This document shows, in pieces, positions 3,089 to 63,909 of a stretch of DNA of 64,000 nucleotides (position 1 is its first letter; each line of letters starts with the position of its first letter). Position numbers and translations under genes: made by a program. This DNA comes from Bacteroidota bacterium (lineage in GTDB: Bacteria > Bacteroidota > Bacteroidia > CAIKAF01), in the NCBI GenBank assembly GCA_016866335.1, contig VGMT01000012.1, positions 1 to 64,000 on the forward strand, read 5' to 3'. The notes beneath the pieces were generated by a model, which was not told where the DNA came from, ran no database searches, and saw only the letters and a program-made list of their open reading frames with translations.

Positions 3089-3106
3089 AACAGGGTGTTG
3101 ATTTGG

Positions 3107-3255
3107 GCGGTTGCGGGCTTTCACAGGTAGTCCGCGGCCAGGGGCTTTATGCCCAGCGGCTTTGCGGTGGCTCCTAAAGTCGCCTCCGCAGCACGCGGGC
3201 ATTAAAGCCCCCGGCCTTGCGGGCAACCTTGTTCAATCCCTACCGCAGGCGGCGG
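3107..3255 (+). repeat. Hairpin element R1 (eight-copy family)
   Basis: Copy 1 of a dispersed ~145-bp element. Outer ends pair (GCGGT with ACCGC), the apical part reads GCGGTGGCTCC, TAAA, GTCGCCTCCGC, and the copy-specific arms (CCAGGGGCTTTATGCCC; GGGCATTAAAGCCCCCGG) are complementary. The right end runs into the fic gene and supplies its last codons and stop. It lies between convergent genes. Confidence 0.85.
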
Positions 3256-11398: not shown

Positions 11399-12196
11399 TT
11401 AAGGCAATACATAGCAAAGGTACAGCACCAGCAGCCCCAACAACATAAAGGCCTTTAGCAGGAACGACAGCCGTTTGTAGTTTCGGTCAAACAAAACAAA
11501 GGGCAAAGGCAAAACAAAGGCCAGTCCAAAAATGACGGGCGATTTTTCGCTGCGCCAAAGCAAATCCGACAAGGCCGCCAGGCCCAACAACGAAAGAGCG
11601 GCCAACAGGCGGTACAACCAAACCGGAGGCAAGGAATACCGAAGGGGTTTGTGCTTTGCATCGCCGGCTTGGTCTTGCAGGCTTTTTACCAACTCTCGAG
11701 CAAAATGCACAAGAGCTACGGCGGTGTAGGCCCATATTTTTTGCTGAAATGCAAGGGGGCCTGTATGAATCAACAAAAACAAGCAGAATCCCATAATGCC
11801 TGCCAGCCAAGCATTGCCCAGAAGCGGAAAATATTGAAGCCTAGAATTGTAAAGCCAAAGAGCCAGAGCAACAGCCACCAAACCCAACACATGGGCTGTG
11901 GAATCAAGCATGCCCAGAAAAATCAGGAACATTGCCAAAGCCAACAACAAAAGAAGAACGCCCAAGCGGCGGTTTTCTTTGCTTTGAAAGGGATTGGTGT
12001 TTGGGCGGTTTAGGGCATCGGCCCGAAAATCGCCCAGGTCGTTGTGCAGGTTGCCCATAAGCATTAACATCAGTAGGCCCGCGAACAAAGGACTGCCCAG
12101 CTGGGAAGGCGAAACAATCCAAGCCGTAAGGGCCAAAAAACCAAGGTTGATGGGCCTAAGGCTCGAAATCCAGGGAAGTGGGGGGAATAATTTCAT
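11399..12196 (-). CDS. UbiA family prenyltransferase
   Basis: A 265-residue integral membrane protein with about eight hydrophobic segments. The first prenyl-diphosphate/Mg motif is NLHNDLGDFRADALNRP (NDxxDxxxD type). The second, RELVKSLQDQAGD, keeps the downstream DxxGD, but Ser stands where many relatives have the first Asp. In Bacteroidota such proteins are often annotated geranylgeranylglycerol-phosphate transferases or quinone prenyltransferases; the exact acceptor cannot be told. The start at 12196 (MKLFPPLPW) is chosen because the longer frame to 12433 runs through repeat element R2. TATCTTTG at 12225-12218 is the likely -7 box, which places the rest of the promoter within R2. Confidence 0.85.
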   Translation of the reverse strand: MKLFPPLPWISSLRPINLGFLALTAWIVSPSQLGSPLFAGLLMLMLMGNLHNDLGDFRADALNRPNTNPFQSKENRRLGVLLLLLALAMFLIFLGMLDSTAHVLGLVAVALALWLYNSRLQYFPLLGNAWLAGIMGFCLFLLIHTGPLAFQQKIWAYTAVALVHFARELVKSLQDQAGDAKHKPLRYSLPPVWLYRLLAALSLLGLAALSDLLWRSEKSPVIFGLAFVLPLPFVLFDRNYKRLSFLLKAFMLLGLLVLYLCYVLP

Positions 12197-12235
12197 GGGT
12201 TTGCCTTCACAAAGAAACAAAGATAAAAGACTTGT

Positions 12236-12386
12236 GCGGCCGCGGGCGGGATTGAAGAGGCTAGCACGCAACGGCAAGGGGCCGGGCGGCGCGCGCAAAA
12301 AAGAGCGACCTTGGGAGCTCCTTTTTTGCCGCTGCCGCCGGGCCCCTTGACGGCGGACTAGCCCTGAAAGCCCGTAACCCGCCCCC
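12236..12386 (-). repeat. Hairpin element R2 (A/T-rich apical stem variant)
   Basis: Minus-strand copy in the divergent gap between ubiA and the subtilase. The usual apical GCGG/CCGC stem is replaced by GCAAAAAAGGA on one side and TCTTTTTTGC on the other, while the loop GCTCCCAAGGTCGC is kept. The outer arms (CAAGGGGCCCGGCGGC and GCCGCCCGGCCCCTTG) also pair. Confidence 0.85.
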
Positions 12387-12455
12387 CAAAAAAACCAGAA
12401 CCGTACACCTAAAGTAAATTCGCTATCTTGCACGGAAATTTACACATCAACTACC

Positions 12456-14066
12456 ATGAATACGCGTTTTGCAAAGCTTAGTATTGCTTTATTTTATGCC
12501 CTTTTGTTGGCCGTTTTGCCGCTTTCGGCGCAGACCGATACGCCCCCCAAAGATTGGTTTCATTTGAACCAAGAAGCCGATGGATATGCCGGGGTTAGTT
12601 CGAAAAAGGCCTATGAATTCTTAAAAAATAAAAAAAGCCGTACCGTTGTGGTGGCTGTCATCGACTCGGGCGTGGACATTGAGCACGAAGATTTGAAAGG
12701 GGTGATTTGGGTGAATCCCGGCGAAATTCCAGGAAACGGTAAGGACGACGACAACAACGGCTATGTGGACGATGTGAACGGTTGGAATTTTATTGGCGGC
12801 AAGGATGGTTCTCAAATCAACCAAGATGCCTTGGAAATGACCCGCATTGTGGCAGCTTACGGCCCTGCATTTGAAGGGAAAACCGAGAAAACCGTAGCCA
12901 AAGCCGATTTGGCTAATTTTAAAAAATACAGCGCCGCCAAAGCCGTTTTAGATGCCGATTTGGCAGAAGCTCAGGGCGGTTTAAAGCAGTACCAAGGCAT
13001 TGCCGATATGCTAGACAAGGTTTTGGCCGAGGCCAAAAGCCAAGGCATTGATGAAATCAAAGGCTCAAACCTTGCCTCTTTGGCCGTGGCCGAAGGCAGC
13101 GAGGTGGCGGAAGCCATGGGAATGGTGAAAATGATTGCTACACGAAATCCCGATGTTCCCCTGGCCGATATTCGCCGCAGCTTAGACCAGGCATTAGACT
13201 ATTTTGGAGGACAGGTGAACTTCCATTTAAACGTAAATTTTGACCCCCGCGCTATTGTGGGCGACAACTATGCCAACAGCGACGAACGCTTTTATGGAAA
13301 CAACCTGGTGGAAGGTCCCGATGCATTCCATGGCACCCACGTAGCGGGCATTATTGCCGCCGTACGCAACAACGGAATTGGTATGGACGGCATTGCCGAC
13401 AACGTGCGTATCATGGTTTTGCGTGCCGTACCCGATGGCGATGAGCGCGACAAAGACGTTGCCAACTCCATTCGCTACGCCGCCGACAACGGAGCGAACA
13501 TCATCAACATGAGCTTTGGAAAAGGATTTTCGTGGGACAAAAAAGTGGTGGACGATGCCGTGGCCTATGCCACCGCCAAAGGAGTTTTGCTGGTGCATGC
13601 CGCCGGCAACGAGTCCATCAACGTGGACAAAGAAGACCGCTTCCCAACCAAATACTATCAATCCGGTGGTGCCAGCAGCACCTGGTTCAACATCGGAGCT
13701 GGTTCCTGGAAAAAGGCCCCAAAGCAAGTCGGCGGTTTTTCAAACTACGGCAAAAAGAACGTGGACCTGTTCTCGCCCGGAGTAGCCATTTACAGCACCA
13801 TTCCCGACAGCAAGTACGATAACGCACAGGGAACCAGCATGGCGGCCCCCGCGGCGGCTGGTGTTGCGGCAGTGCTGATGAGCTATTATCCGAAGATGAC
13901 GGCTCAAGATGTGATTTCAGTCCTGATGAAATCGGCGGTAAAAACCAAAGAAAAAGTGGTGCTTCCTGGCGACGAAAAAACAGTGAAATTTAGCAGCTTG
14001 TCGAAATCAGGCGGACGCATCGACCTGCATCGGGCAGTGCTAATGGCCGACAAAACATTTCAATAA
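12456..14066 (+). CDS. Secreted S8 family (subtilisin-like) serine protease
   Basis: A 536-residue secreted protease. A signal peptide (residues ~1-25, ending LSAQ) precedes the catalytic domain. The triad is visible as D70 (AVIDSGVDIEH), H292 (FHGTHVAGI) and S461 (GTSMAAP). Between Asp and His there is a long helical insert (residues ~130-240, Ala/Glu/Lys-rich), longer than in classical subtilisins and common in Bacteroidota S8 enzymes. No T9SS C-terminal domain follows, so it is probably periplasmic or surface-exposed by another route. It lies just upstream of, and in line with, the DUF5686 protein. Confidence 0.92.
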   Translation: MNTRFAKLSIALFYALLLAVLPLSAQTDTPPKDWFHLNQEADGYAGVSSKKAYEFLKNKKSRTVVVAVIDSGVDIEHEDLKGVIWVNPGEIPGNGKDDDNNGYVDDVNGWNFIGGKDGSQINQDALEMTRIVAAYGPAFEGKTEKTVAKADLANFKKYSAAKAVLDADLAEAQGGLKQYQGIADMLDKVLAEAKSQGIDEIKGSNLASLAVAEGSEVAEAMGMVKMIATRNPDVPLADIRRSLDQALDYFGGQVNFHLNVNFDPRAIVGDNYANSDERFYGNNLVEGPDAFHGTHVAGIIAAVRNNGIGMDGIADNVRIMVLRAVPDGDERDKDVANSIRYAADNGANIINMSFGKGFSWDKKVVDDAVAYATAKGVLLVHAAGNESINVDKEDRFPTKYYQSGGASSTWFNIGAGSWKKAPKQVGGFSNYGKKNVDLFSPGVAIYSTIPDSKYDNAQGTSMAAPAAAGVAAVLMSYYPKMTAQDVISVLMKSAVKTKEKVVLPGDEKTVKFSSLSKSGGRIDLHRAVLMADKTFQ

Positions 14067-16502: not shown

Positions 16503-16573
16503 GGGCTTGGATTGTGGGGATAAACCGCTGGGGCGGCGACACTGGCGCAAGGCAATTAGGCCGCAGCTAGCTT

Positions 16574-17380
16574 AGCCACGAATGCACGAATGGTATGTTT
16601 TTGGGCTAGATTGGCGTGGTATTCATAATCGGTGGTTATTGGAAATGCGTAATTAGGGTAGCCACGAATGCACGAATGGTATGTTTTTGGGCTAGATTGG
16701 CCTGGTTTTCATAATCGGTGGTTATTGGAAATGCGTAACTAGGGTAGCCACGAATGCTCGAATGGGTGCATTCGTGGCTAAAACCCCATACACCCAAAGC
16801 CTATCCCCATATTTTCCTGCATGCGTGGCTTCAGCCACAACCACGCCCATTCGTGCATTCGTGGCTAAAAACCTAGCCGCAAAAAGCGTAGCCACATTTT
16901 TTCCTTCTTGCGTGGCTTCAGCCACAGCCACACCCATTCGTGCATTCGTGGCTAAAAACCTAGCCGCAAAGAGCGTAGCCACATTTTTTCCTTCTTGCGT
17001 GGCTTCAGCCACAACCACACCCATTCGTGCATTCGTGGCTAAAAACCTAGCCGCAAAAAGCCTATCCCCATATTTTCCTGCATGAGTGGCTTCAGCCACA
17101 GCCACAACCATTCGTGCATTCGTGGCTAAAACCCCATACACCCAAAGCATAGCCCCATATATTCCTGAATGGGTGGCCACAGCCACAACCACACCCATTC
17201 GTGCATTCGTGGCTAAAAACCTAGCCGCAAAAAGCGTAGCCACATATATTCCTGAATTAGTGGCTAAGGCCAAAGCCACACCCATTCGTGCATTCGTGGC
17301 TAAAAACCTAGCCGCAAAAAGCGTAGCCACATTTTTTCCTTCTTGCGTGGCTTCAGCCACAACCACAAGAAAAGAAGAGC
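16574..17380. repeat. 86/87-bp tandem repeat array
   Basis: Two 86-bp units start at 16574 and 16660. They are followed by six units whose ATTCGTGCATTC landmark falls at 16849, 16936, 17023, 17110, 17197 and 17284, an exact 87-bp period, with a partial unit at 16762. Units contain the hairpin GTGGCT-TC-AGCCAC and vary by several substitutions. Single relatives lie at 38.7 and 41.2-41.8 kb. Because 87 is a multiple of three, frames stay open on both strands; these are not taken as genes. Confidence 0.9.
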
Positions 17381-17453
17381 GGAGTCGGGGTTAGTCCTTA
17401 AAACGCTAACCAACAGCTTTACTTGCCCTTAGAAATCCCTTAAAAACGAAAAA

Positions 17454-18224
17454 TCAGGGCAGAATATTAAACTCAATCACCGACAATGCCTTTACGTTTC
17501 CCCCGGCTTGAAGGGTAGTGCCCGCCGGCAGCCACATGGGCAAAGAGGTAGAGATTTGAGGGCGGGTTCGATCCATTCGGGAAAGGGCAACCGTACTGCT
17601 GGAATTCCCCACAAAATTTGCCCAAACATCACCGACATTCCAGCAGCAAGCGCAACTACTGCTAGTGTTGTACGTTTCAACAATTTGAGCCCCGTTGGCC
17701 AAATTCACAACTATCCTAAATTCGGGAGTTCCCCTTGTTGTTTGATTTCCCGCCGCCAACCAAAAATTCCATCGGTCAATCTCGTTGTTCCCCGGCGAAG
17801 GCGGGGTAAAGGTCGCCACCGTAGTAAATTGATTGTAGGTGCTATTTAAATTGGCACTGGAATTGTCTTGGTCAATGGCCGAGCCGCCGCCGCTGCCCAA
17901 AAAGCGCATCCGCACCACGGTGTTGCAAAGTTGACCACGAACCTGCACCACCACCGAGGTAACATTCTCCCACCTACTTACATTGTACGAATCGTAACCC
18001 AACACCACGGTATCGCCATTGATGTAAAAAGTAGGCGAAACCCGAATGCCCTGCGAAATGCCCAGCACCGCAGTTTCAACTTTCCATACCTTATTGGCCG
18101 GCACCGAGTCGATGGCCTGAACCAACTTAACCTGATTAAACTGCAAGGTGCCTTGAGCGCTAAGCCCCAAAGCGAACAAACTGGCCAAACCAGCCTGTAT
18201 AAAACGAAAAAATAGGCAATTCAT
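17454..18224 (-). CDS. Secreted protein of unknown function
   Basis: A 256-residue protein with a signal peptide (~1-24, ending LSAQ). The rest is beta-rich and Thr/Ser/Asn-rich with a short Cys cluster (SSSCACCWNVGDVWANF) near residue 190. I do not recognise a domain. No T9SS C-terminal domain is present. It stands alone between the tandem repeat array and a divergent T9SS protein. A TATATTTA box lies just before the ATG on the minus strand. Confidence 0.7.
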   Translation of the reverse strand: MNCLFFRFIQAGLASLFALGLSAQGTLQFNQVKLVQAIDSVPANKVWKVETAVLGISQGIRVSPTFYINGDTVVLGYDSYNVSRWENVTSVVVQVRGQLCNTVVRMRFLGSGGGSAIDQDNSSANLNSTYNQFTTVATFTPPSPGNNEIDRWNFWLAAGNQTTRGTPEFRIVVNLANGAQIVETYNTSSSCACCWNVGDVWANFVGNSSSTVALSRMDRTRPQISTSLPMWLPAGTTLQAGGNVKALSVIEFNILP

Positions 18225-20439: not shown

Positions 20440-20467
20440 GCCCAATTTTAGGCTGGTTTTGATTGGG

Positions 20468-20615
20468 GCGGCAGCCGGGCTTTCACCGGTAGTCCGCGGT
20501 TGTGGGGGCTTGGCCCAGCGGGCTTGCGGGGGCTCCTAAAGTCGCCTCCGCGCCGCGCGGGCCATTGCCCCAACACCCTTGCGGGCAACCCGGTTCAATC
20601 CCTGCCGCAGGCCGC
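20468..20615 (+). repeat. Hairpin element R3
   Basis: It has outer GCGGCAG/CTGCCGC, apical GGCTCCTAAAGTCGCC, and copy-specific arms GGTTGTGGGGGCTTGGCCC and GGGCCATTGCCCCAACACC that pair with each other. It lies between two genes on the same strand, after a terminator. Confidence 0.88.
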
Positions 20616-26970: not shown

Positions 26971-27046
<76 letters not shown>

Positions 27047-27074: not shown

Positions 27075-27100
27075 CTTTTATGGCGTTGGGCATTCGGGTT

Positions 27101-27246
27101 GGCCGCGCCCCCGATTGAGGCGGCAGGCGGCAAGGCGGCGGGCCACAGGCCTGCGCTGAGGAGGCGACCTTGGGAGCCACCGCAAGCGCCTAGGCCTGTT
27201 GCCTGCCGCGCGGCCGACTACAGCCGAAAGCGGGATAAGGCGCCCA
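27101..27246 (-). repeat. Hairpin element R4
   Basis: Minus-strand copy with the core GGAGGCGACCTTGGGAGCC. Its arms GGCGGCGGGCCACAGGCCT and AGGCCTGTTGCCTGCCGC are largely complementary. It lies between tRNA-Gly and the convergent kynureninase. Confidence 0.85.
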
Positions 27247-32214: not shown

Positions 32215-32319
32215 AATCGCAGCATTTTAGGCTCTGAAATTTAGCTCGGAATGCACGCATGGTTGCGTATGCGGGGCCATCAACCTGGTAGTATAAAATT
32301 AGCCATTCCTAATCTAGGT

Positions 32320-32460
32320 GCGGCAGGGATTGACGAGGCTACCCCGCAAAGTTGCCGAAGCCTGGCCTGCTAGGTGCGGAGGCGACGTTAGGAGCCCCCG
32401 CAAACCAGCTGGGCCTGCCTTTCGGCAACTGCGGAGTAGCCCGGAAAGCCCGGCTGCCGC
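32320..32460 (-). repeat. Hairpin element R5
   Basis: Minus-strand copy. The ends GCGGCAG/CTGCCGC pair, GGCTAC pairs with GTAGCC, the core is GGAGGCGACGTTAGGAGCC, and the private arms AGTTGCCGAAGCC and GGCCTGCCTTTCGGCAACT match each other but no other copy. It lies between gcvP and the cry gene. Confidence 0.88.
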
Positions 32461-32520
32461 CCCCAAATCAATTATTTTTAAAATGCTGTAACCATTTCCC
32501 TTCTGGCTTGTTTCAGTAGC

Positions 32521-38711: not shown

Positions 38712-38734
38712 TTAGGAATTTTTGGCGGGCTTTT

Positions 38735-38830
38735 GGTGTATGGGGTTTTAGCCACGAATGCACGAATGGGTGTGGTTGTGGCTGAAGCCAGCCAAGAAGG
38801 AAAATATGGGGATAGGCTTTGCCCCATTCG
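38735..38830. repeat. Single copy of the CACGAATGCACGAATG repeat
   Basis: It has TGTATGGGGTTTTAGCCACG, then AATGCACGAATGGGTGTGG and the tail AGGAAAATATGGGGATAGGC, matching units of the array at 16.6-17.4 kb in reverse orientation. The 80 bp to the next gene hold nothing recognisable. Confidence 0.8.
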
Positions 38831-38913
38831 CAGCCTTTGGAAGCAAAACCTTGTCTTCAAATAAATTCCATGAAAACTTGCTTTAAAAGGCGGTTTTTAA
38901 TAGTTTTAACCCT

Positions 38914-41229
38914 ATGTTACCGAGACGATTCTTTTTCATTCTTGGCTTTAGTGCCAGTTTTTTGGGTGCCCGGGGACAAATGCCTTCTTTGCCGCTCAAT
39001 GAAACAGGAACGGCATCAAATTTTGAGCCATGGAACGAAGCCATGGTGGCTAAAAAAGAATTGAGCGACGCCTTTCGAAGAACGTATTATTTAACCAACG
39101 GAAGAGTCGTTGGGCAAACTTCGAGAACAGCTATTAATTACAAAACAGCGGCGGAGAACTGGGCTGAGATTGAGGCTTTGCCTACAACAACCGATGGCCT
39201 TGTTTACACAGCAAAAAGACAATCGTTTCCAGTTGAACTTGAATTAAATACCGGCTGGGCTAAGGTTGGGCATATGCGGTACCGGGCCTTGAAAGTATTG
39301 GGCAAAGAACTTCCTGAATTAAAGCAAGGGGCCAGCCCAGGCATCTTTGAGCAGCAGGTTTCGGTGGGAATAATCCGAACGACAGAATTTAAGCATAACG
39401 CATTGAAAACAAGCGTTTGGTTGAACAATGTACCCACTGGGGTTCAAACTTGGTCAATCGAGGAGCAGCTTGAACTTCCTATGGGAGCCACGTTGGTTCC
39501 CGACAAAGAAATGCCGGGCTTGTTGCGGGTCGAGGTTCAACAAGAGGTGCTGGGATTAATCTATCCCGCATGGCTTAAAGATGCTCAAGGGCAATTTGCC
39601 TCTGCCGAATTTGAATTTCGTGTTGATGGCCAACAGGTATCGTTGAAGACGGTGCTACCTAAAGACTGGATAAATGATCCTTCCAGGGTTTTTCCCATCG
39701 AAATAGATCCTTTGGTAACCGGGCCTACCTCGGTGTTTGGGGGCGGCTTTATGCCCTCGTGCGATATGCCCAATTTTTATGTTGACAGTATTTTGGTAAG
39801 TGTACCTGCCATGATTACCATCACAGGGGCTTTTGTAACGGGAAGCTATTTTGCAAGTCCATTTACCGGAGCCACCATGGCGAATGGAACGATGTTTTTT
39901 AGTTCATCTTGCGGGAATTCACCCCAATTAACCGTTGCCCCTCCGATAGGCAATACCGCCGGAACTGCCTATTGTGCAAATCAGGATTACCGCAGCCCAT
40001 TAACCTGTTGTTTGCCCTCGGCCTGTACTACTCAAACCTTTTGGGTAAAAATGCATATTGGCCGCAATATTGGAGGGCCCGGCTGCAATTACAGCTATAT
40101 TTATTACGACATGAATTCGCCTTGGCCGTTTTCGGTTTACATAGAGGGAAGAACCATTGAAACGGCAAGTTCTGGCTGGATTTTAACGCCCAGTGAACAG
40201 TGTTCGGACGATTGCGAAGTTAAAATCAGGGCTTTTGCCCGCTATGGTGTTCCTCCATATTCCATTGTTCATCCCTGGCTTCAAGGGGTTGAGTCAATGG
40301 GTAATCCCAACATAGGCTGCCAAACCCCTTTGGTAAATAAAGAGGTTACAGCCACCCGTCCTAATTGCCCCGACTTTTGCGTAGAAAACCCAAATCTGCC
40401 TGTTCCTGCTCCTGTTGTGCGAGACCAATGCAACAATGGAATCCAAGGATTTGCATCTAAACTCTTGTCTATCAAACCCACTCCTGAAATTTCAGCCTCG
40501 ACCAACCTCGTTGAGCTATGCAGTGGGGAATCTGCAAGTATCTTATTTGATGCATGCCCCGATGGGGTTGATGTGAACTGGTCTGGAGGAGGTTTTCAAG
40601 GTCAAAATCAGTTGGATACCACCATGGTAAATACCGGAAACGACACCTTAACCGTAGTTTATCAGGCTACGGCTTCATTAAATGGATGTACGGCTCCGCC
40701 AATTGGTGCAACCATTCACACCTATCCACTACCCGATGCATCGATGGTATTGCCGCAGGTGGCCATCATCAATACAGATGTTCCATTGTTGGACTCATCC
40801 GATTACAGCGGCGGCTTGCCACAAAACATAGAATGGCTTCTGCCTGGCGGAAGTTCGGTAAATGGCAGTCCCGCCACCTTCGCGTTTAGCTCGGTTGGCG
40901 AACAAGAGGTTTGCCTGGTTGTAGAAACCAATTATGGCTGTAGAGATACCACCTGCAAAACAATCATGATAATACCTCCAGATGTGCCCTCTCCGAATGT
41001 GGTTACTCCGAACGCCGATGGAGAAAACGATGCTCTGGCCTTTGAATATTTAAGCTTTTTCGGTCCCGCACGTTTGACTGTTTTTAATCGTTGGGGCGTT
41101 GTTGTGTATTCAAACTCTGATTATCAAAACGATTGGATTCCAACGGTTAACGACGGCACCTATTTTTATGAATTGATCTTGGCCGACGGAAAAACCAAAA
41201 CGAGCACCTTGCTTGTGGTTCGGCCTTAG
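38914..41229 (+). CDS. T9SS type B protein with gliding-motility-like C-terminal domain
   Basis: A 771-residue exported protein. The start MLPRRFFFILGFSASFLGARG is a signal peptide. There is no recognised enzyme domain in the first 500 residues. A central Cys-containing beta-rich region and a PKD-like part (residues ~590-690) come before the C-terminal ~85 residues, which form a CHU_C/type B sorting domain (PNVVTPNADGENDALAFEYL, RLTVFNRWGVVVYSNSDYQN, DGTYFYELILADGK). It is exported by the type IX system and probably attached to the surface. Copies of the CACGAATG repeat lie on both sides of the gene. Confidence 0.85.
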   Translation: MLPRRFFFILGFSASFLGARGQMPSLPLNETGTASNFEPWNEAMVAKKELSDAFRRTYYLTNGRVVGQTSRTAINYKTAAENWAEIEALPTTTDGLVYTAKRQSFPVELELNTGWAKVGHMRYRALKVLGKELPELKQGASPGIFEQQVSVGIIRTTEFKHNALKTSVWLNNVPTGVQTWSIEEQLELPMGATLVPDKEMPGLLRVEVQQEVLGLIYPAWLKDAQGQFASAEFEFRVDGQQVSLKTVLPKDWINDPSRVFPIEIDPLVTGPTSVFGGGFMPSCDMPNFYVDSILVSVPAMITITGAFVTGSYFASPFTGATMANGTMFFSSSCGNSPQLTVAPPIGNTAGTAYCANQDYRSPLTCCLPSACTTQTFWVKMHIGRNIGGPGCNYSYIYYDMNSPWPFSVYIEGRTIETASSGWILTPSEQCSDDCEVKIRAFARYGVPPYSIVHPWLQGVESMGNPNIGCQTPLVNKEVTATRPNCPDFCVENPNLPVPAPVVRDQCNNGIQGFASKLLSIKPTPEISASTNLVELCSGESASILFDACPDGVDVNWSGGGFQGQNQLDTTMVNTGNDTLTVVYQATASLNGCTAPPIGATIHTYPLPDASMVLPQVAIINTDVPLLDSSDYSGGLPQNIEWLLPGGSSVNGSPATFAFSSVGEQEVCLVVETNYGCRDTTCKTIMIIPPDVPSPNVVTPNADGENDALAFEYLSFFGPARLTVFNRWGVVVYSNSDYQNDWIPTVNDGTYFYELILADGKTKTSTLLVVRP

Positions 41230-41560
41230 GTAGGCCACGAATGCACGAATGGGTGTGGTTGTAGCTGAAGCCACGCAATAAGGAAAATATGGGGTTAGGC
41301 TTTGGGGGTATGGGGTTTTAGCCACGAATGCACGAATGATTGTGGTTGTGGCTTTAGCCCCAAAAACAAAACAATCGTGCATTCGTGGCAAAGCTATCTG
41401 CGGCTTAAATTCCTTGCGCCAATCTCGCCCCAATACATACCATTCGTGCATTCGTGGCTACCCCCTTACAACGTAATTCCAATAATAACCCATTATGAAA
41501 ACCACGCCAATCTCGCCCCAATAACAAAACATTCGTGCATTCGTGGCTAAGCTATCTGCG
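41230..41560. repeat. Cluster of CACGAATGCACGAATG-type repeats
   Basis: It has landmarks in both orientations (41236, 41324, 41375, 41446, 41530). The 41440-41550 part is homologous to the 86-bp units at 16574-16745, in inverse orientation. Frames crossing this stretch are repeat artefacts. Confidence 0.8.
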
Positions 41561-41648
41561 GCTTGGGTTGATTTGGGGGTTTGTGAATTAAGCTGGGACT
41601 GAGCTGCTGGAATTGGGGCTTTTTTTTTAGAATTTCAGTGTTAAATTT
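41561..41648 (+). pseudogene. Degraded duplicate of the porin 3' end
   Basis: Reading forward, CTTGGGTTGATTTGGGGG, then TTTGTGAATTAA encodes LGLIWGFVN and a stop, identical in protein to the end of the porin at 141-171 (one synonymous base in the first codons). The non-coding 3' flank also matches as far as TGTTAAATTT, with small gaps. No further upstream porin sequence remains; repeat copies border it on both sides. Confidence 0.75.
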
Positions 41649-41834
41649 GAGTGCTTAGCTATCCGGGGCTAGGGTTTTAGCCACGAATGCACGAATGATT
41701 GTGGTTGTGGCTGAAGCCACCCAAGAAGGAAAATATGGGGCTGGGCTTTTGGTGTATGGGGTTTTAGCCTCAGATTCGGGATTCTAAAATCCATCAAACC
41801 TTTTTATTCTTGCTACCTTTGCAAGGTAAATCTT
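41649..41834. repeat. Further CACGAATG repeat copy and nfu upstream region
   Basis: Another unit in the same orientation as at 38.7 kb lies at about 41675-41768. After it TACCTTTG (41814-41821) is a likely -7 box for nfu, with no clear TTTG upstream. Confidence 0.6.
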
Positions 41835-53817: not shown

Positions 53818-53853
53818 GCCCAAGCAAAATCCCTTTCCTTGTTTCATTTCTGG

Positions 53854-54000
53854 GCGGCAGCCGGGCTTTCACAGGTAGTCGGCCTTTGCCAGTCATTGGC
53901 CCAGCGGGCTTGCGGGGGCTCCCAAGGTCGCCTCCGCACCACGCGGGCCATTGCCTGCCAAACCGCCGAGCTACCTAGTTCAATCCCTGCCGCAGGCGGC
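53854..54000 (+). repeat. Hairpin element R6
   Basis: Outer GCGGCAG/CTGCCGC and AGGTAG/CTACCT pair. The core is GGCTCCCAAGGTCGCC, with private arms CTTTGCCAGTCATTGGCCC and GGGCCATTGCCTGCCAAACC. It lies between convergent arfB and atpG. Confidence 0.88.
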
Positions 54001-59827: not shown

Positions 59828-59976
59828 GGGCGGGTTTCGGGCTTTCGTGGGTAGTCCGCGTTGGGCAGCTTCGGGCCCAGCGGCTTTACGGTGGCTCCCA
59901 AGGTCGCCTCCGCAGCTCGCGGGCCCGGTGCCGCCCCCCTTGCCGGCTACCCTACTCAATCCCGCCCGCAGCCTCG
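59828..59976 (+). repeat. Hairpin element R7
   Basis: It has outer GGGCGGG/CCCGCCC, core GGCTCCCAAGGTCGCC, and private arms GTTGGGCAGCTTCGGGCCC and GGGCCCGGTGCCGCCCCCC. It lies in the divergent gap between atpB and the SprB-repeat gene. The frames open here are repeat artefacts. Confidence 0.87.
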
Positions 59977-60099: not shown

Positions 60100-63000
60100 A
60101 TGAAAAACACCCTTATCCACATTAAAGCGGCGCTTCTTGCCAGCCTGTTCGGATTTTTATTAGCAGGCCCATCGCAGGCTCAATGTACGGGCGGAAGTGC
60201 CTACGGAACCCTAAGCCCAACTCAAAGTTGGCAGACGTTTTCTGGCGGTTGGGCCGGCGAATACCAAACATTTACCGCCATTGCCGGAGCCACCTATGAA
60301 TTTTCATACTGTGCCGCCGACGGAGGAAGTTCTTCCTACGACACCGAAATCACCCTTCAAAATGCAAACGGAACGCCTTTGGCCTACAACGATGACTTCT
60401 GTGGAGCCCAGTCTCGCTTAACCTGGACGGCCCCCTCGGCCGGAACCTATTGGGTTCACACGACTGAATATTTGTGTATGTTCAATTCCATTTCATCAAC
60501 CCTGGCCTACCGCATCTTATCGCAGCCCAACCCCAACAACGACGTTTACTTGTCGGCCAGTTATTATGCCAGCGAGTATTTGCAAATTCCGTTGCCTCAG
60601 GTTCAAGCCCAGGTATTTAGTGGACAGGTAACGAACGGAAGCACTTCAACAGCAAGTGGTTTTGGTTTAAAAGTTGATGTAATCAACGCAGGCAACAACA
60701 GCATTATTCAAACTTTTACCAGCGCCTTAAGCAACGCCCCAGGCGGAACCGTTCAGACTTACAACAATTTAGGCAGCTGGACACCCAGCGCCATAGGTCT
60801 TTATCGTATTCGCTATACCGCTTTGGCCAGCAGCCAAAACGGAAATGCGGCAAACGATACCGCTTCTTATTTATTAACCGTAACCGATACGGTGTATGGC
60901 CGCGACAACAACATCCCCCAAAGCACTTTAACCATTGGCAGCGTTACAGCCCCAGCACCAGGGGAACTTGGCGTGAATTATCAGTTGTTTGCAGCAGCCA
61001 ACCTTAAATCCATTGGAATTCGTGTTGACAACAGCACAGGGAACGCTACGGGATTCACCTTAAATGTTATCGTGCGTTCTGCCGCATTAAATGGAACTCC
61101 GGGGGCTGTTTTAGATACCACCGTTTCTTATACCGTACCCGCCAACCTAAATGGTTGGATCAATCTGCCCTTAAGGCATGGGGCTTTAAACCTTCCAACA
61201 GGAAAGGTGTTTGTTGGAATTTTAGAAGCCAACCAGCCTATTCCCGTTTCGGTTTTTGACAATATTTTCACCCTTAATTCCAATTGGGTGAACTCCCCCG
61301 GTTTAACCATAGGTTGGCAAACCATTGAATCGTTTCAATTTACCCGCACTTACGGGGCTCGCCTTAATGTTGGCCCTCCATGCCCCAACCTTAACCCCAA
61401 CATGACCGTTACTCAGCCTTCCTGCAATCAGCCATTGGGCAATGTAACAACGAATGTAAGCGGCGGCAATGGTCCATACACGTATGCATGGAGCAATGGC
61501 GCGTCCACCTCAGGATTAACAAACGTTCCTGCCGGAACCTACATTGTAACCATTACTCAGACCTCTACAGGTTGTTCCGTCATTGATACTGCCATTTTAA
61601 ATCCGCTTAACCTGCCGGTGGTCAATTTCCTTTTGCCAACGAATGCCTTGTGTTTCGGTCAAAACGGACAAATCACCGCCAACATCAGCGGCGGCACTCC
61701 GCCCTATACCTATTTGTGGTCCAACGGCAGCAACAACGACACCCTTTTCGCTACAGCAGGGGCCTACTCTTTAGGAATTACCGATGCCGCGGGTTGCCAG
61801 GCAAATTCACAATTGGCCACCATCGGCGGCCCCCAAGCGGCGTTAACGGCCACAGCAAACAGCAACAACCCCGCCTGCGGTCAAACCAACGGCAGCATTA
61901 ACCTAACCATTTCTGGCGGTACCGCTCCTTACTCTGTTTTATGGAACAACGGAAGCACTGGAACCTCCTTGGGCAATTTGCCCGCAGGTAGCTATGTGGC
62001 TACCATTACCGATGCCAACGGTTGCACCTCTTCAACTACGGTTACTTTGGTGAACCCCAACTCCCCAACCGCCACTACCCAAGCCATTGCTGCTCCAGCG
62101 TGCAATGGCGGCAACAACGGCAGCATTTCGTTGAATGTAAGCGGGGGTACGGCACCCTACTCTTATTCTTGGAGCAACGGCTCAACCACGGCAAGCCTAA
62201 GCGCCGCTTCAGGAACATACAGCGTTACCATTACCGACCAGGCCGGTTGCAGTACGGTTCTTTCCAACTTGGTTATTCCCGTTCAACCCGCCATTCAATC
62301 GAACATAAATGCGGTTAATGTGAATTGCAACGGCAACCCCGGTTCAGCTACGGTAACCGCCAGCGGTGGAGCCGGAGGCTTCACTTACTTGTGGTCCAAT
62401 GGGGCAACAACGGCCTCCATTAACAACCTGCAACCCGGTCAATATACGGTGGTTATCACCGACCAAAACGGTTGTACAAAATCCGATACAGCAACCATTC
62501 AACAGGCCGTTCCCGTTTCAATTACTCAGGTTAACGTCTCTCCGGCAGCTTGCGCCGGACAAAACGGCTCGGTTAGTTTGGTGATTAGCGGTGGTGTTTC
62601 TCCCTATACCTATTTATGGTCAAACGGAAGCACCAATGCTACCCTTACAGCCCCTGCAGGTTCAGGTTATTCCGTGGTGGTAACCGACGCTACTGGCTGC
62701 ACAGGTCAAGCAGGAAATATCACCATTACTGCTCCTGCTGCCATTACCACGACCTTTAGCGTTCAAGACGCCAACTGTGGAGCCAGCGATGGAAGCATTA
62801 CCGTAAACGGCTTAGGCGGCACCGGAAACTTAACGTATACCTGGGCCAACGGTACCATTGGAGCTACCAACTCCAATCTAAGCGCCGGATTCTATATGGT
62901 TACGGTTACCGACCAAAACGGTTGTTCTGTGGTTGATACCGGCATTGTTGGCAACATTGGTGCCCCTACAGGTACTGCAAGCGTTGCCAATGCAAATTGT

Positions 63001-63654
63001 AACGGCGACAATGGAACCATTACGCCCACAATTACCGGCGGCCAAAGCCCTTATTCCTTTGCCTGGTCAAACGGAAGCACAGGCCCCTCGCTTTCGGCTC
63101 CCGCTGGAACATACACGTTGGTCCTTACAGATGCCAATGGTTGTGTTTTGAACCTTGGACCTTACAGCATTACCGAACCGGCTCCTCTTAGCATTTCAGT
63201 AAGCACTACCGATGCCACCGGTCCAAATACTCCCGATGGCAGCGCTACGGCTACCGTTTCGGGCGGAACAGCCCCCTACTCCTACGCATGGTCGGGTGGA
63301 AGCAACACCAATTTGTTGCCCGGAAACTATACAGTAATTGCAACCGATGCCAATGGCTGCAAAGACACCGCTTCTTTCACCATTGGGTCAACCATGTCAA
63401 TGCAACCCGAAGCAGCAGGCTTTGGTCTTTATCCTAACCCTGCAAGCACTCAGGTTCAGGTTGACTTAAGCAGCCTAAGCGGTATTTGTCAACTGCGCAT
63501 TTTGGATTCCCGGGGCCGTACATTGACTTCGTTCAAGGTTGAAGGCGGCCAACGTCATGCGGTAGAAGTAGTAGGTCTTTCGGCTGGAGTGTACCTGGTG
63601 GAAATACAAAATGGAGAGAACAGCTACCGTCAGCGCTTGATTTTGCGTCCATGA
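60100..63654 (+). CDS. SprB-repeat T9SS-exported protein
   Basis: A 1184-residue exported protein. The start at 60100 (MKNTLIHIKAALLASLFG) is a signal peptide; the earlier TTG at 60076 adds nothing plausible. Residues ~35-130 look like a PPC-like domain (YEFSYCAADGGSSSYDTEIT). Residues ~430-1090 contain about nine or ten SprB-like repeats of ~70-80 residues (pattern NGSI.L.ISGGTAPY, then W.NGST...L..L.AG.Y.VTITDANGC). A type A T9SS sorting domain ends it (YPNPASTQVQVDLSSLSG to RLILRP). It is a likely long surface adhesin, possibly linked to motility or attachment as SprB-type repeats are in gliding relatives. Confidence 0.88.
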   Translation: MKNTLIHIKAALLASLFGFLLAGPSQAQCTGGSAYGTLSPTQSWQTFSGGWAGEYQTFTAIAGATYEFSYCAADGGSSSYDTEITLQNANGTPLAYNDDFCGAQSRLTWTAPSAGTYWVHTTEYLCMFNSISSTLAYRILSQPNPNNDVYLSASYYASEYLQIPLPQVQAQVFSGQVTNGSTSTASGFGLKVDVINAGNNSIIQTFTSALSNAPGGTVQTYNNLGSWTPSAIGLYRIRYTALASSQNGNAANDTASYLLTVTDTVYGRDNNIPQSTLTIGSVTAPAPGELGVNYQLFAAANLKSIGIRVDNSTGNATGFTLNVIVRSAALNGTPGAVLDTTVSYTVPANLNGWINLPLRHGALNLPTGKVFVGILEANQPIPVSVFDNIFTLNSNWVNSPGLTIGWQTIESFQFTRTYGARLNVGPPCPNLNPNMTVTQPSCNQPLGNVTTNVSGGNGPYTYAWSNGASTSGLTNVPAGTYIVTITQTSTGCSVIDTAILNPLNLPVVNFLLPTNALCFGQNGQITANISGGTPPYTYLWSNGSNNDTLFATAGAYSLGITDAAGCQANSQLATIGGPQAALTATANSNNPACGQTNGSINLTISGGTAPYSVLWNNGSTGTSLGNLPAGSYVATITDANGCTSSTTVTLVNPNSPTATTQAIAAPACNGGNNGSISLNVSGGTAPYSYSWSNGSTTASLSAASGTYSVTITDQAGCSTVLSNLVIPVQPAIQSNINAVNVNCNGNPGSATVTASGGAGGFTYLWSNGATTASINNLQPGQYTVVITDQNGCTKSDTATIQQAVPVSITQVNVSPAACAGQNGSVSLVISGGVSPYTYLWSNGSTNATLTAPAGSGYSVVVTDATGCTGQAGNITITAPAAITTTFSVQDANCGASDGSITVNGLGGTGNLTYTWANGTIGATNSNLSAGFYMVTVTDQNGCSVVDTGIVGNIGAPTGTASVANANCNGDNGTITPTITGGQSPYSFAWSNGSTGPSLSAPAGTYTLVLTDANGCVLNLGPYSITEPAPLSISVSTTDATGPNTPDGSATATVSGGTAPYSYAWSGGSNTNLLPGNYTVIATDANGCKDTASFTIGSTMSMQPEAAGFGLYPNPASTQVQVDLSSLSGICQLRILDSRGRTLTSFKVEGGQRHAVEVVGLSAGVYLVEIQNGENSYRQRLILRP

Positions 63655-63712: not shown

Positions 63713-63762
63713 CCCCGAAATAGGCTTTAAAACAAAAAGAGTCAATCGAGGACTCGGGGTGG

Positions 63763-63909
63763 TCTGCGGTAGGGATTGAACCGGGTAGCGCGCAAAGCAG
63801 CTGGCCATGGGCCCGCGTGGGGCGGAGGCGACTTCAGGAGCCCCCGCAACCCCGCTGGGCCCACAGGCAGCTGCTGCGTACTACCGGTAAAAGCCCGCAA
63901 CCGCCACCC
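63763..63909 (-). repeat. Hairpin element R8
   Basis: Minus-strand copy. GCGGT/ACCGC and GGTAG/CTACC pair, the core is GGAGGCGACTTCAGGAGCC, and the private arms GCAGCTGGCCATGGGCCC and GGGCCCACAGGCAGCTGC pair with each other. Confidence 0.88.

Follow-up and report, generated by a model that had tools for sequence, protein, structure and literature searches.

We found that R2, a hairpin in the gap between a UbiA-family gene and a subtilase gene, belongs to a high-copy family of elements that is conserved in shape, mostly retained by vertical descent, subject to cassette-like exchange of its inner part, and related to the Flavo-1 motif. We classify this family, from its sequences, as a probable interspersed palindromic element present in high copy number and representing an extended, genus-level form of the Flavo-1 superfamily. 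We lean towards reading the element as a DNA-level, REP-like hairpin or cruciform site bound by a putative protein, rather than as an RNA regulator. The window discussed here is the whole 64,000-nt stretch of DNA that was analyzed, and the own genome is the genome to which the window belongs (2.45 Mb, 99% complete). Features in the window are collected in Table 1.

Table 1. Location of R2, its parts, its neighbors, and further family members in the window.
Feature	Position	Strand	Evidence or remark
Family copy	3104..3249	+	
UbiA prenyltransferase family gene	11399..12196	-	Divergent neighbor; PF01040, E 4.3e-11
Candidate UbiA -7 box, TATCTTTG	12218..12225	-	Sequence
R2, whole ~146-nt hairpin	12239..12384	-	Motif orientation GGGCGG...GCTCC-loop...CCGC
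Basal conserved motif, GA strand, GGGATTGA	12248..12255	+	Flavo-1 core, 5' side
A-T rich apical stem arm GCAAAAAAGA	12295..12304	+	Pairs with 12319-12329; conserved in orthologues
Apical segment GCTCCCAAGGTCGC	12305..12318	-	+ strand: GC-GA-CCUUG-GGA-GC
A-T rich apical stem arm TCCTTTTTTGC	12319..12329	+	One C unpaired, complement of the other strand's extra-helical G
Basal conserved motif, GA strand, GAAAGCCC	12366..12373	+	Flavo-1 core, 3' side
A-run (motif strand: T-run) adjoining the base	12388..12394	+	Misplaced for an intrinsic terminator, whichever direction is read
Subtilase (peptidase S8) gene	12456..14066	+	Divergent neighbor; PF00082, E 1.7e-47
Family copy	20466..20611	+	
Family copy R4	27098..27243	-	Outer-stem variant GCGCC...CCCG / CGGG...GGCGC
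Family copy	32316..32461	-	Carries the 13-member inner cassette
Family copy	53852..53997	+	
Family copy	59828..59973	+	
Family copy	63762..63907	-	

The strict pattern GCTCCNAANGTCGC had 177 exact copies in the own genome, and the reversed control had none. In 850 kb of this genome, sampled in stretches, we counted 83 intact copies, which extrapolates to ~240 per genome, of an element roughly 145 nt long whose ends are T-run/GGGCGG and CCGC(A/G)GGC. None of these 83 copies lay within a convincing long gene, genes being called with an ad hoc ORF caller; the copies are intergenic and are not periodically spaced (CV 0.75). About two truncated remnants with half-element signatures were found in the same 850 kb, which indicates that decay of copies is rare. 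The element had no matches in the viral contigs and plasmids searched, which speaks against phage or plasmid cargo, and literature searches on Bacteroidota palindromic repeats brought up no description of it. Some copies form close inverted pairs ~200 bp apart on contigs of the own genome (C4:68255/68452, C5:113151/113348, C9:57723/57942), which recall BIME/REPIN doublets, and R4 follows a tRNA gene (26971-27043) at a distance of about 55 bases. Another, separate family of repeats in the window is based on GCCACGAATGCACGAATG (16568-17454, 38728-38840, 41211-41769) and includes 87-nt units in a tandem array as well as dispersed copies in inverted orientation. The window also contains repeated coding units (SGG..PY.Y.WSNG..; 61450-63150) that resemble extracellular PKD/gliding-type repeats.

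The original prediction had placed R2 correctly, in coordinates as in letters, and its statement that the apical stem consists of A-T pairs around a preserved loop also holds: the loop GCTCCCAAGGTCGC lies between GCAAAAAAGGA and TCTTTTTTGC on the reverse strand. The stem was said to be fully paired; its only interruption is an extra-helical G on the GGA side. The pattern GCGG..GGC/GCC..CCGC, ascribed to seven copies, is approximate, as two copies depart from it by a single mismatch: in R4, GCGG faces CCTC, and in R7, ACGG faces CCGC. Folded as RNA, the two strands of R2 reached -90.0 and -93.9 kcal/mol (z -6.3 and -7.0), with 0 of 200 dinucleotide shuffles equally good, and DNA parameters gave z scores of -5.8 and -7.2. 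The overlap of R2 with the UbiA ORF is limited to a spurious GTG extension. Bacteroidetes promoters have the -7 consensus TAnnTTTG, with which TATCTTTG, upstream of the UbiA-family gene start at 12196 on the same strand, agrees. The putative -33 region of this gene would then lie within the base of R2, so that the earlier remark on a promoter overlap seems reasonable.

Pairing is maintained throughout the family. In an alignment of 57 own copies with 56 base pairs, both sides had changed at 46 of the 56 pairs, two-sided cells numbered 566 against 209 after shuffling, and covariation was 0.423 against 0.137 in shuffled alignments (0/500), with slid controls at 0.163 or below. Compensatory change in the element family is thus far wider than had been claimed, with nearly all stem positions covarying among these 57 copies. 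The apical closing pair of the 75 loop-exact own copies was G-C in 60 and A-T in 15, and alignment column pair 70/85 was GC in 42 copies, AU in 15, and unpaired in none; a check for uncompensated variation of the apical stem found no broken closing pair among the 75. Loop-exact copies with an A-T closing pair had on average 4.8 of the next five pairs in Watson-Crick form, and isolated single mismatches occur lower in the stem, where they are scattered. The proposal that the A-T stem of R2 arose as an independent event did not survive. Fourteen other own copies fall in the same closing-pair class, and the orthologues of R2 in two related species, G009 (91% DNA identity) and G008 (~80-84%), share the A-T stem but show compensated differences at other stem pairs, indicating that this stem was inherited and is not new.

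Two parts of the element are constant in their letters. The basal motif reads GGG-C-TT-TC ... TC-AA-T-CCC on the motif strand and GGGAUUGA ... GAAAGCCC on the other, here called the GA strand, where essentially all copies have the core GAUUGA / GAAAGC with a 1x1 A.G mismatch, UU/AA pairs, and tandem G.A. Also close to invariant are several bulges and, at column pair 31/126 of the motif strand, a U.G. The second constant part, the loop, had been singled out as the functional sequence. This holds within a subset of this genus, but not elsewhere: in G005, G007, G004, and other families, with lengths from 83 to 155 nt, the tip is wholly different and the basal motif is retained. Judged from these sequences, the base is the class-wide, universal part of the element, topped by a loop that is lineage-specific.

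The basal motif also connects the family to Flavo-1 (RF01705), a Bacteroidota RNA motif of unknown function described in 2010 (Weinberg et al. 2010, PMC2864571). R2 itself had no match to the RF01705 covariance model up to E 5; its sole permissive Rfam matches were plant and animal miRNA models, which we rejected as an artefact of any long hairpin, and at the gathering threshold the only match in the window was one tRNA. The best RF01705 score in the own genome was 30.1 bits, for short elements only and below the gathering cut-off of 42 bits. In the sister genera G012 and G013, RF01705 scored above the curated cut-off, up to 65.6 bits, including 138- and 150-nt forms. Short forms matched the full-length model, and did so on the GA strand, against the motif orientation. 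For L239, L185, and L242, matches to Flavo-1 and to our own model (R1) coincided in position but lay on opposite strands, and L181, a 148-nt element from a sister genus, matched Flavo-1 around an insert of 92 nt (E 0.004). Through these four intermediates, the element is homologous to Flavo-1. Since neither R2 nor the long own copies reach the cut-off, we treat them as an extended form of the Flavo-1 superfamily and not as members by the Rfam criterion.

A different explanation, in line with how Rfam files Flavo-1, is that the element is a true structured non-coding RNA of the GA strand, formed around the tandem G.A in the GGGAUUGA/GAAAGCCC base and a GGC-GA-C-YUUR-G-GA-GCC tip. Tandem G.A pairs are a typical RNA motif; both conserved sites are GA/GA on the GA strand, which is also the Rfam orientation, G.A-type mismatches are in excess on that strand, and the RNA fold is very stable. 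Nevertheless, we consider such an RNA unlikely, given that the placement of the element shows no orientation preference relative to transcription: in co-directional gaps, 25 elements were sense and 21 antisense (p 0.66). Flavo-1 matches in F. psychrophilum likewise occur sense and antisense alike and are often untranscribed (PMC9723704). The flanks were inspected for T enrichment at the 3' side and for promoter-like or terminator conservation, and none was seen; the T-run lies 5' of the element on the motif strand (an A-run 3' on the other strand). An intrinsic terminator was rejected, as the T-run comes before and not after the hairpin, and a riboswitch or UTR element is disfavored by the orientation neutrality. 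Element orientation was also uncorrelated with local GC skew, which is itself weak.

Mismatch statistics point in the same direction. For RNA from either strand, wobble pairs would be expected in excess, but isolated mismatches in variable stem columns comprised 27 G.T against 28 A.C, and one-sided changes between orthologues comprised 21 GU and 23 AC, next to 78 two-sided Watson-Crick changes. With no excess of wobble over A.C on either strand, and with orientation-neutral placement, the RNA function implied by the original prediction is not favored. On the motif strand, C.T mismatches numbered 82 against 22 A.G, so that there is some single-strand-specific constraint, which would be compatible with RNA too. 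Such strand-specific traits, with purine-purine mismatches favored on one strand and a fixed U.G, count against the DNA reading and could be explained by RNA, although folded DNA, like RNA, can accommodate G.A pairs.

We compared orthologous sites with three relatives at ~70-90% gene identity, the relatives being largely MAGs. Where both flanks aligned, the element was present in 19 of 24 cases, always in identical orientation (19/19), and four of the five remaining cases (L079, L116) were at rearranged double-element loci. At these loci, two opposed elements (L079:1616-1966, L116:6718-7068) lie between genes that the own genome has on different contigs, and the own counterparts, at 53852-53997 of the window and at C6:8053-8197, have one element each. 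This arrangement suggests a rearrangement breakpoint between the paired elements. The own copy at C4:97971 and its Erken orthologue L114 have outer stems identical letter for letter and unrelated inner hairpins, and a single inner cassette of 82 nt is shared by 13 own copies whose outer 5-mers come in nine versions. These comparisons of sequence show whole inner hairpins exchanged between loci, with the outer stems remaining locus-specific.

Elements also come and go, as shown by 121 element matches in G004 against 0-3 in G001-G003 of the same genus, and by a locus at which G002 is cleanly empty and G004 has a ~400-bp stretch with the element. This stretch (L189:1444-1843) holds two hairpins, the element and a second, oppositely oriented one (GGCGAGGAGGCGAGGGGC...), with no clear target duplication at the site. 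High copy number, presence or absence between close species, and this insertion would suit a selfish miniature mobile element (REP/MITE-like) without host function, whose hairpin is the substrate of a transposase acting in trans. We regard this as a doubtful reading, considering that a search for Y1 transposases (PF01797), which are found in some relatives, gave no matches in the own genome and G009 despite 177-200 exact-loop copies, and that no autonomous version was seen. Moreover, the copies are mostly old and orthologous, and almost none are decayed. That pairing is kept by mutation bias alone, through template-switch correction of quasi-palindromes in replication and without selection, is highly improbable even though two-sided changes exceeded one-sided changes about tenfold in the paralogue alignment, as correction would erase the unpaired positions (C x U, UC/UC, bulges) that recur in nearly all copies between long paired stretches, and as conservation between species extends to particular letters of the base and tip.

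In the favored reading as a DNA-level site, constraint would act on DNA shape, as a hairpin on an exposed single strand or as an extruded cruciform, and a putative protein would recognize the mismatched base and the tip, in the manner of REP/BIME protein-binding and topology sites. Copies may arise through occasional dispersal followed by vertical retention, and their interiors may be homogenized or swapped by gene conversion. Gene conversion would replace both arms together and so produce apparently compensatory change without G.U intermediates. Elements were enriched in convergent gaps (20/52, against 44/234 co-directional gaps; OR 2.7, p 0.003), which fits a topology or nucleoid role, but could instead reflect tolerance of insertions there. 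More tentatively, Flavo-1 and its extended forms might together be class-wide, shape-coded DNA sites and not RNAs, with a putative Bacteroidota protein reading the mismatched base and a species-specific tip, the stem serving as a sequence-free spacer and the inner hairpins as cassettes. Flavo-1 has been listed as a non-coding RNA since 2010, and the copy number of the family is high enough to test statistically whether these supposed RNAs are in fact DNA elements. The family is also a clear natural experiment on whether pairing in long palindromes is due to selection, gene conversion, or palindrome correction, and its base and tip provide a concrete bait for the protein that reads the element.

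Compared with known systems, the element resembles intrinsic terminators as a GC-rich hairpin close to gene ends, and differs from them in being orientation-neutral, preceded by its T-run, far too long, and position-specific in sequence. REPs are defined as palindromes of 20-40 nt with the tetranucleotide GTAG or CGTC at one end (PMC3733652); the ~145-nt element does not have this end tetranucleotide. A RAYT-associated REP was rejected, as the own genome is without a Y1/RAYT gene. The hairpin is much longer than in REP/RAYT systems, with a stem free in sequence and a fixed base and tip. With REP, BIME, and REPIN sequences it nonetheless shares the character of high-copy, extragenic, imperfect palindromes that have conserved defects and favor convergent gaps. 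Unlike Flavo-1 (~76 nt), R2-type copies are ~145 nt long with a ~90-nt inner hairpin and their own conserved tip, occur ~240 times per genome, and are below the gathering cut-off or undetected. Like Flavo-1, they are multicopy elements of unknown function in Bacteroidota with orientation-indifferent placement (PMC9723704), and they share with it the architecture of the base and the letters of the GA strand (GAUUGA-AGCGGA ... UAGCGGAAAGC).
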